Below, piece by piece: positions 1,694 through 4,430 of a stretch of DNA of 6,901 nt; the stretch's first letter is position 1; every line of letters begins with the position of its first letter. A program made the translations under genes and the position numbers. Below the pieces are notes generated by a model. That model saw nothing but the letters and a program-made list of their open reading frames with translations. It was not told where the DNA came from and did no database searches. This DNA is from Methylothermaceae bacterium (GTDB lineage Bacteria; Pseudomonadota; Gammaproteobacteria; Methylococcales; Methylothermaceae), in assembly GCA_027024125.1 (NCBI GenBank), contig JALVSV010000077.1:1-6901 (forward strand). Reading direction: 5' to 3'.

Positions 1694-2335
1694 ATGTCCA
1701 CGGAACGCAATCCTGAAAATACCCGTTTCAAGATCCTCAAGGCTGCCTTTGCGGAAATGCATCAACACGGATTCCAGGGGATGCGGGTGGATCAGGTTCT
1801 GAGCAGGACAGGCCTGAAGAAGGGGGCGCTCTATCATCATTTCCCCAGCAAACAGGCGTTGGGATACGCGGTTTTGGAAGAGCTGATTGAAAAGCGTATC
1901 CGTGAGCTTTGGATCGATCCCCTGGCGGATTTCGATGATCCCCTGGAAGGCATCTATGTCTTGTACGAGCGCATCGGTGACGTGTGGAGTGATGAATTTT
2001 TCGCTCTGGGTTGCCCGCTGAACAAGCTGGCACAGGAAATGTCTCCCATCGACGGGGGGTTCCGGGAGCGGATAGGCCGGTTTTTCCGGTTGTGGCAGAA
2101 GGCCGTCAGCCAGGCGTTGTTACAAGGGCAAAGCCGTGGAATCGTGAAGCCGGAAATTCAACCCGATGATTGTGCCCTGTTTGTCGTAGCCGCGATTGAG
2201 GGGGCTTTGGGGATGACGAAAATTCTGGGTGATAAAGCGGTTTACGAGCGGGGTAAGGGAGAGCTGAAGAGATATCTGGAATCCTTGCGCCTCGATATTG
2301 AATCAATGACAAATGACTCATGGGAGGAAGAATGA
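1694..2335 (+). CDS. TetR/AcrR-family repressor, NemR-like redox switch residues
   Basis: This is a 213-residue TetR-family repressor. The N-terminal DNA-binding domain spans about residues 10-58, with the recognition region [18 protein letters not shown] typical of the family. The remainder is the helical ligand/dimer domain, with the motif [12 protein letters not shown]. The start at 1694 is preferred because GGTGA (1683-1687) lies 6 nt upstream; an in-frame ATG at 1688 would add Met-Gln but has no usable ribosome site. Cys107 and Lys176 are 69 residues apart, the same spacing as Cys106 and Lys175 of E. coli NemR, which form a reversible sulfenamide on oxidation (family knowledge). There is a further Cys160. 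It probably represses both itself and the divergent GST-exporter operon through the two palindromes, releasing on electrophile or oxidant stress (inference). Its stop overlaps the ferredoxin start. Confidence 0.9.
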
Positions 2336-2706
2336 GCGAATCACTCAAATCCATTGCCGAGAAACTGGGATTGGCAGCTACCAGGTATCATATCTTTCTG
2401 TGCTGCGATGCCGCTGTGCCAAAATGCTGCCAGCGTGAGCAGGGACAGGCGTCTTGGGCGTACTTGAAAAAACGCCTTGATGAATTGGGGTTGGCTGGCC
2501 AGGGAGGCGTTCAGCGTACCAAGGCTGATTGCCTAAGGGTCTGTGCTCAAGGACCTGTTGCGGTGATCTATCCAGAAGGCGTCTGGTATCACTCTTGCAC
2601 CCCCAAGGTTCTGGAGCGGATCATTCAGGAGCATTTGATCGAAGGCAAGGTGGTGAAGGACTATGCCTTTGCCCAGGTGCAAACGATCCCGAACAGACAG
2701 AAATGA
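2332..2706 (+). CDS. [2Fe-2S] ferredoxin, thioredoxin-fold (Shethna/Fd4-like)
   Basis: This is a 124-residue small electron carrier of the thioredoxin-like [2Fe-2S] ferredoxin family. Seen: the opening strand YHIFLCC, cysteines at 24/25 and 32/33, then the second ligand pair Cys67 and Cys71 in [11 protein letters not shown], followed by [12 protein letters not shown] and an EHLIEG helix, all typical of the family. The two vicinal Cys pairs leave two cysteines beyond the four needed for the cluster, so which ones bind iron is unclear. The start at 2332 was chosen because GGAGG (2323-2327) precedes it and the codon overlaps the tetR stop as ATGA; an in-frame ATG at 2320 would swallow that ribosome site. 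Partners are unknown. Co-transcription with the regulator suggests a role in the same redox response, though such ferredoxins often sit beside unrelated genes. Confidence 0.9.
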
Positions 2707-2728
2707 ACAGGAAGATTCTTGGCCCTCG

Positions 2729-2747
2729 AGGAAACGCAGCGTTTCTT
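2729..2747 (+). terminator. Weak hairpin after the ferredoxin gene
   Basis: GAAACG and CGTTTC (2731-2736 and 2740-2745) form a 6-bp stem with a CAG loop, extended by a G-U and an A-U pair. Only an interrupted T-rich run (TTGTT) follows. It stands 22 nt after the ferredoxin stop and may be a leaky terminator of the tetR-ferredoxin operon or a 3'-end stabiliser. Confidence 0.35.
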
Positions 2748-2776
2748 GTTGTGGGGCGCCGGTTACAGAACATAAG

Positions 2777-2792
2777 TTTGATTTGGATCAAA
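2777..2792 (+). promoter_or_regulatory. FNR/ANR binding site
   Basis: TTTGATTTGGATCAAA matches the FNR/ANR consensus TTGAT-N4-ATCAA at every position, with one more symmetric pair outside. FNR-type proteins carry an oxygen-labile [4Fe-4S] cluster and activate genes when oxygen is low. The centre (2784.5) is about 41.5 bp upstream of the start predicted from the -10 at 2813-2818, which is the classic activating (class II) position. Confidence 0.85.
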
Positions 2793-2812
2793 ACGCGTTT
2801 GTGGGGAACCGC

Positions 2813-2818
2813 TATGCT
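2813..2818 (+). promoter_or_regulatory. -10 element of a class II FNR-dependent promoter
   Basis: TATGCT matches TATAAT at 4 of 6 positions and lies where the FNR site predicts it, giving a start at about 2824-2826. No good -35 is present (AAAACG overlaps the FNR site), as is usual for activator-dependent promoters. An overlapping alternative, TATGAA at 2819-2824, would shift the start by 6 nt. Confidence 0.65.
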
Positions 2819-2824
2819 TATGAA

Positions 2825-2918
2825 TAAGCCTCCTTCCTGTCGTGAAACACAGGATATTTCAGCCATTTTATCCTCTGGGAAGGGATTGAGCGGGTGCCAT
2901 GTGCCCCGCTCTTTTTTT
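2825..2918 (+). ncRNA. Candidate FNR-activated small RNA, about 92 nt
   Basis: Between the predicted FNR-dependent start (about 2825) and a strong intrinsic terminator (2888-2918) there is no protein gene, so the unit would yield a short stand-alone RNA. From 5' to 3': a C/U-rich segment (CCTCCTTCCT, 2829-2838); a hairpin with stem TCCTGT/ACAGGA (2835-2840 and 2849-2854); an A/U-rich single-stranded stretch (about 2855-2869) that could bind Hfq; a possible weak stem (ATCCT/GGGAT, about 2870-2886); and the terminator hairpin with seven Ts. This is the architecture of Hfq-dependent trans-acting sRNAs. I see no sequence likeness to E. coli FnrS, the known FNR-activated sRNA. Alternatives are an FNR-controlled leader with a conditional terminator ahead of nqr, or the 3' end of a longer tetR-ferredoxin transcript. 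Confidence 0.6.
2888..2918 (+). terminator. Strong intrinsic terminator
   Basis: GAGCGGG (2888-2894) pairs perfectly with CCCGCTC (2905-2911), a 7-bp GC-rich stem around a 10-nt loop that may add two inner pairs. Seven Ts follow directly (2912-2918). The other strand has no T-run, so it works only rightward. It would end the candidate sRNA and isolate nqr from upstream transcription. Confidence 0.88.
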
Positions 2919-2941
2919 GTCTTGCGGTAGCTTAGGTTGCG

Positions 2942-2970
2942 TTGTCCGCAGGTTGGTTTTGTGATCTAAT
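2942..2970 (+). promoter_or_regulatory. Predicted nqr operon promoter (extended -10)
   Basis: TTGTCC (2942-2947; 4 of 6 to TTGACA) and TCTAAT (2965-2970; 5 of 6 to TATAAT) are 17 bp apart, and TGA just before the -10 forms the TGN extended element. Transcription would start near 2977, leaving a leader of about 92 nt before nqrA. It lies just downstream of the terminator, so nqr appears to have its own sigma70-type promoter. Confidence 0.65.
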
Positions 2971-2987
2971 ACGGCGAGTTTTGCCTT

Positions 2988-3028
2988 GACCCGGGTCGCT
3001 GGTGCCAAGTCTGGGGCCGCGGGTTTTT
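2988..3028 (+). promoter_or_regulatory. GC-rich nqr leader, possible attenuator hairpin
   Basis: The leader contains the 10-bp palindrome GACCCGGGTC (2988-2997), and ACCCG (2989-2993) can pair with CGGGT (3020-3024), extended inward by GG/CC across a bulged G. Five Ts (3024-3028) end the element. This could be an attenuator, but the stem is short for its long loop and the T-run is modest. Confidence 0.3.
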
Positions 3029-3032
3029 CTGA

Positions 3033-4429
<1,397 letters not shown>

Positions 4430-4430
<1 letters not shown>

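Follow-up and report, generated by a model that had tools for sequence, protein, structure and literature searches.

The window, i.e., the whole stretch of 6,901 nt that we analysed, encodes an NqrA protein 89% identical to that of a MAG of Methylothermaceae, a family within Methylococcales. In the region preceding nqrA, a ferredoxin-like gene (2332-2706) is followed by an FNR-type palindrome, a -10 element, an intrinsic terminator and then nqrA (from 3063), with a separate sigma70-like promoter between the last two (Table 1). A hairpin-like palindrome (GGAAACGCAGCGTTTC, 2730-2745) lies 3' of the ferredoxin-like gene, and similar ones are found in several relatives. It could mark the end of this gene's transcript or be a protein site.

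Table 1. Features of the nqrA upstream region and of nqrA, in window coordinates.
Feature	Position	Strand	Basis or conservation
Ferredoxin gene (2Fe-2S, thioredoxin-like), 5' of the RNA unit	2332..2706	+	NCBIfam NF041612, E 2.7e-15 but below cut-off; Pfam PF01257, E 0.0011, below cut-off
FNR-type palindrome TTGATTTGGATCAA, centre 2784.5	2778..2791	+	TTGAY-N4-RTCAA also in 26 relatives
-10 element TATGCT; spacing to the FNR-type site as in class II	2813..2818	+	TANNNT in relatives likewise
Predicted small RNA, about 93 nt	2826..2918	+	Bounds from FNR spacing and terminator
CCTCCTTCC, 5' strand of predicted closing helix	2829..2837	+	Identical in 6/8 nearest members (window counted)
Loop plus core TTTCAGCCATTTTATCCTCTGGGAAGGG; core ATCCTCTGGGA = 2870-2880	2857..2884	+	Strongly conserved; core common to the wider family
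Intrinsic terminator: 7-bp stem GAGCGGG (2888-2894) / CCCGCTC (2905-2911), seven T (2912-2918)	2888..2918	+	Sequence; relatives have different stem sequences
Separate sigma70-like nqr promoter TTGTCC-17-TCTAAT	2942..2970	+	Sequence; 3' of the terminator, kept in near relatives
nqrA	3063..4430	+	Pfam NQRA domains; a longer ORF starts at 3033

The original prediction described a non-coding unit of about 92 nt, made of a perfect FNR site, a -10 element placing FNR at about -41.5 and a strong intrinsic terminator, and all of these elements are present. The palindrome TTGATNNNNATCAA occurs once in the window, at 2778-2791, and none of 200 dinucleotide shuffles contained one. The start predicted from the -10 element is at 2825-2826, putting the FNR-type site at about -40.5 to -41.5, and, counted from 2826 through the last T, the stretch measures 93 nt. 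The terminator is listed by a generic scan, but this class of sites is not enriched in the window (seven found vs a shuffle mean of 7.0); it is credible because it is conserved, not because of the scan. Judged from the sequence, the locus thus appears to have what distinguishes an FNR-activated sRNA gene, a standalone terminated unit with an FNR-type site at about -41.5.

When 300 genomes of the order were searched by BLAST, 54 showed a match at E 0.1. The seven strong matches (E 3e-9 or better) all had the FNR-type site and adjoined nqrA, and the next best (0.003) were short pieces. Three of the regions preceding nqrA (L001, L002, L004) retain the FNR-type site, the -10 element, the long block of loop plus core and the terminator, and their spacers drift. 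Conservation of the FNR site and the terminator in relatives, one of the checks named in the original prediction, was therefore found. When the window was aligned with three relatives, the invariant bases clustered on the elements (12/16 in the FNR segment, 28/33 in the loop plus core, 21/30 in the terminator segment, 18/33 in the nqr promoter region, 2942-2974), with few elsewhere (11/68 in the upstream spacer, 5/23 just 3' of the terminator).

The unit lies 5' of nqrA in seven of the nine genomes of the nearest relative's family, with 44-47 nt between the FNR centre and CCTCC. The two others (G003 and G009) lack the RNA. The 6 kb upstream of nqrA in G003 contain no FNR-type site, and a stretch similar by eye (GGCCATTTATCTCTCAGGG) may be a remnant of the RNA locus. 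In G009 (L229:1000-1530), a frame that we take to be FtsH-like reaches the -10 of the nqr promoter, at the place where close relatives carry the sRNA gene, as if the latter had been deleted. The sRNA gene itself adjoins ftsH in G082 (L120).

Mechanical ORFs (2529-2930 and 2663-2827) overlap the RNA stretch in the window, as would be expected if it held a short peptide gene. Yet, the ATG codons of the window are absent from the relatives, and indels of one or two bases within the conserved loop (CATTTTATCC, CATTTATCC or CATTATCC) shift the reading frame. The stretch is therefore no conserved protein gene, in line with what had been predicted. The conserved bases are those of the promoter, the core and the terminator, which makes both a peptide gene and a promoter region whose transcription has been lost highly improbable.

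We then asked how far the RNA extends in Methylococcales. Model R1, run on 310 genomes of the order, recovered the seven strong matches and six weak ones, five of which have an FNR-type site. A core pattern (ATCCTCTGGGAWGG) built from the seven and four of the weak matches was searched in the same genomes and found at 38 places in 32 genomes, vs two for the reversed pattern. Each place was scored on three features: TTGAY-N4-RTCAA on its 5' side, TANNNT spaced as in class II, and a terminator on its 3' side. The FNR-type site and the -10 element at class-II distance were present at 21 places, 20 of which also had a terminator stem; the remaining 17 had neither an FNR-type site nor a terminator (0 for each). 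Eleven of the 21 had defined the core, and the fresh result is therefore 10 of 27 new places. R2, a core-plus-terminator model (A8), added five members with an FNR-type site, four of them with a terminator. The family with core AUCCUCUGGGA(A/U)G includes in total 26 genomes of the order plus the window, a count of members that are related and hence not independent; accepted members are absent from 284 of the 310 genomes.

In all 26 members with the site, as in the window, the TANNNT hexamer begins at a distance of 28-31 nt from the FNR centre. Members have a constant core but differ in their 5' part and in the terminator stem, which persists with unrelated sequences. The shortest predicted RNAs with a visible terminator measure 62 nt (G011, G018) and the longest about 150 nt (G038, G063, G078); the scoring test found no terminator in G045 and G104. 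At E 1 or better, R2 gave many weak matches, in 270 of the 310 genomes, of which we inspected 26 beyond the 20 strong ones. Two loci (L179, L181) have an FNR-type site, ATCCTCTTGAAAGATA and a terminator, and a third (L182) has a core variant and a terminator, with the FNR-type pattern unmatched. These three, with ATCCTCTTGAAAGATA or TTATCCTCTGGTATGATG as core variants, are possible distant members, and were left out of the count. Both the conserved unit and the type of its promoter are well supported by these sequence comparisons.

When R2 was taken beyond the order, to 369 genomes of the class, it matched 11 places with an E-value of at most 5e-4. Known members account for two of these; the nine others lack the exact core, and no FNR-type site precedes them within 130 nt. 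A search of plasmid records with a 171-base stretch gave zero matches. Five of the class-level matches (L220, L221, L222, L225, L226, near position 1501) have in common a hairpin, CCATC...GRTGGTTT, with a GGCG-type terminator after it; a TTGACA-like promoter precedes some of them. They possibly represent another undescribed sRNA family, and nothing in Rfam matched at the place of the hairpin in the four that were scanned (L220, L221, L225, L226).

The position upstream of nqr, noted in the original prediction, holds in most relatives as well: in 21 of the 26 member genomes nqrA lies no more than about 340 nt 3' of the RNA and in the same orientation. Such proximity would suit a 5' leader and attenuator of the nqr operon, with nqr under FNR control and RNA polymerase passing the terminator in certain conditions. 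A leader would act in cis and be continuous with nqr, but the RNA is not directly 5' of nqrA in five of the 26 genomes: in two (G011, G018) an oppositely oriented FKBP isomerase gene intervenes, and the RNA and nqrA are on different contigs in three (G045, G082, G102). Furthermore, near relatives keep the sigma70-like promoter between the terminator and nqrA. Because of this separate promoter and of the five exceptions, the RNA is not simply the nqr leader, a reading that we consider unlikely; the genomic arrangement argues for a standalone RNA.

CRP/FNR-type proteins, the presumed class of regulator, are encoded in all nine genomes of the nearest relative's family, and a four-cysteine, putatively oxygen-sensing FNR (CX2CX5C plus a fourth cysteine) is plain in six of them (G001, G002, G004, G009, G016, G022). 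Outside this count are G003 (protein cut at a contig end), a second match in G026 (L095) and G039 (another CRP-like match). One of the proteins (L094) aligned to the solved FNR 5cvr with an E-value of 3.2e-50 and coinciding cysteines at all four positions; it scored 210 bits against the NCBIfam Fnr model NF008365, for a cut-off of 228. The recognition helix of the FNR-like proteins (L092-L094, L096-L098) has an Ala at the position of Glu209 of E. coli FNR, a point against the proposed reading, although the sites still conform to TTGAY-N4-RTCAA. Hfq was found in 27 of the 28 genomes examined, and not seen in G082. FNR dependence of the RNA is likely.

Simple searches revealed no pairing target common to members. 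The start region of nqrA is not favoured, as it pairs no better than shuffles (z of -0.9 to +1.5 in the window and 20 genomes, using simple duplex energies). We considered a start region GAGGATAAAATGGCTGAA, the exact antisense of the loop plus core in the nearest members. This form in four genomes, and the one-base-shorter form in seven, matched exactly at the RNA genes only. Most of the places with one or two mismatches were inspected, and these showed no start common to two member genomes; one mismatch stretch, found in G001 and in the RNA-less G003, looks like a gene end.

A pattern of the core's complement plus a following ATG matched at 70 places in the 26 member genomes, vs 24 for the reversed pattern. 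By coordinates, 19 of the 70 are the RNA genes. Among the 30 places inspected, 13 were RNA genes and the other 17 showed no gene start twice; as this inspection covers 30 of the 70, it does not fully explain the excess. Two start regions, each of a single genome and unconserved, have the complement just before ATG (L199:1501 in G094, L213:1501 in G018); by eye we take their proteins to be carbonic anhydrase-like and 2Fe-2S hydrogenase-type subunit-like, respectively. Another candidate came from 14 weak R2 matches (46-56 nt) in other genomes of the order, which by eye are antisense to a gene end plus the next start, presumably the fabZ-lpxA junction in the four cases translated. This junction was seen in none of the 17 inspected complement-ATG places that are not RNA genes, and its match in non-member genomes is taken as coincidence.

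These simple tests showed no conserved pairing target at the places inspected, as would be expected if the RNA were made but acted on a protein, e.g., as a CsrA/RsmA sponge, with the core as the protein site instead of a pairing seed. The core UCUGGGAUGG does contain GGA, and several members have its UCUG largely single-stranded, flanked by paired UCC and GGA. However, just one GGA is kept in the core, and the possible AUCC/GGAU pairing shows no covariation, the last base being A or U vs a constant A. We regard action on a protein as improbable. Points against the sRNA reading come from the fold: its stability exceeds that of shuffles only slightly (window z, -2.1; three relatives, z from -0.2 to -1.6), and of 23 predicted pairs a single one, located in the terminator, has both bases changed. 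In the predicted fold of the window UUCAGCCAUUU is unpaired and most of the core is paired; in several members with an ATGG core (G048, G007, G025, G102) the UCUG is predicted to be largely unpaired.

An sRNA that pairs in trans with mRNAs is the reading we prefer. Positions 2826-2918 quite probably encode an sRNA of ~93 nt that FNR is predicted to activate at low oxygen, with a core, a terminator and an FNR-type promoter motif conserved in Methylococcales. Without oxygen, [4Fe-4S] FNR would bind 2778-2791 and contact RNA polymerase, and transcription would start near 2825. The RNA would end at 2912-2918, and Hfq would hold it by its U-rich end. We infer by analogy that it acts in trans: the conserved core AUCCUCUGGGA would pair with ribosome-binding regions of mRNAs, as would the exposed loop UUUCAGCCAUUUUA in the group of the window. 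In E. coli, FnrS lowers the translation of its mRNAs. The same outcome would be the most likely here. The RNA would then turn FNR activation into mRNA repression, by analogy with FnrS and the gonococcal RNA (PMC3032703).

Aerobic methanotrophs often live where oxygen is exhausted, conditions under which they switch metabolism. We lean towards the view that Methylococcales have their own FNR-controlled low-oxygen sRNA, which would predate the split of the order into families, be kept beside nqr, and use the core AUCCUCUGGGA as a pairing seed to reshape aerobic metabolism when oxygen becomes scarce for methane oxidation, i.e., an independently evolved counterpart of FnrS. A conserved FNR-type sRNA is one small deletable gene, and can be tested in cultured Methylococcales.

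No Rfam family matched the window at the gathering cut-off, and FnrS was not among the six matches obtained in 2700-3100 when the threshold was relaxed to E 10. The original claim that the RNA is not kin to FnrS agrees with this, and its reading of the locus, an FNR-activated sRNA unrelated to FnrS, is largely supported by the sequence data and is the best one. The best sub-threshold match was the L20 leader (RF00558; 28.6 bits over 2820-2923, cut-off 58.7). It spans the RNA of the window including the terminator, but the gene downstream is nqrA and not a ribosomal protein gene. Eleven member loci scanned against Rfam showed no match at the RNA, with RNase P near by in two. The RNA is not described in Rfam or in the literature searched, which left out most subscription-journal papers, and it likely represents a real FNR-type sRNA family undescribed in these sources.

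Meningococcal AniS is the counterpart of the gonococcal FnrS. ProQ binding is treated in PMC11912907. The FnrS of Enterobacteriaceae (Durand and Storz 2010, as described in PMC3032703) is a short RNA with an FNR class-II site centred at -41.5. The RNA of the window has the same class-II FNR-type arrangement, but the hosts differ and it has no Rfam match to FnrS. The gonococcal FnrS has an FNR-type class-II site, a length of about 111 nt and an intrinsic terminator at its end, and its authors term it the likely functional equivalent of the enteric FnrS (PMC3032703). By its description, it shares with the RNA of the window the class-II site and the short terminated transcript, in other hosts. 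If our reading is true, the RNA of Methylococcales would be an independent case of FNR acting through RNA, beside the enteric FnrS and the gonococcal RNA.
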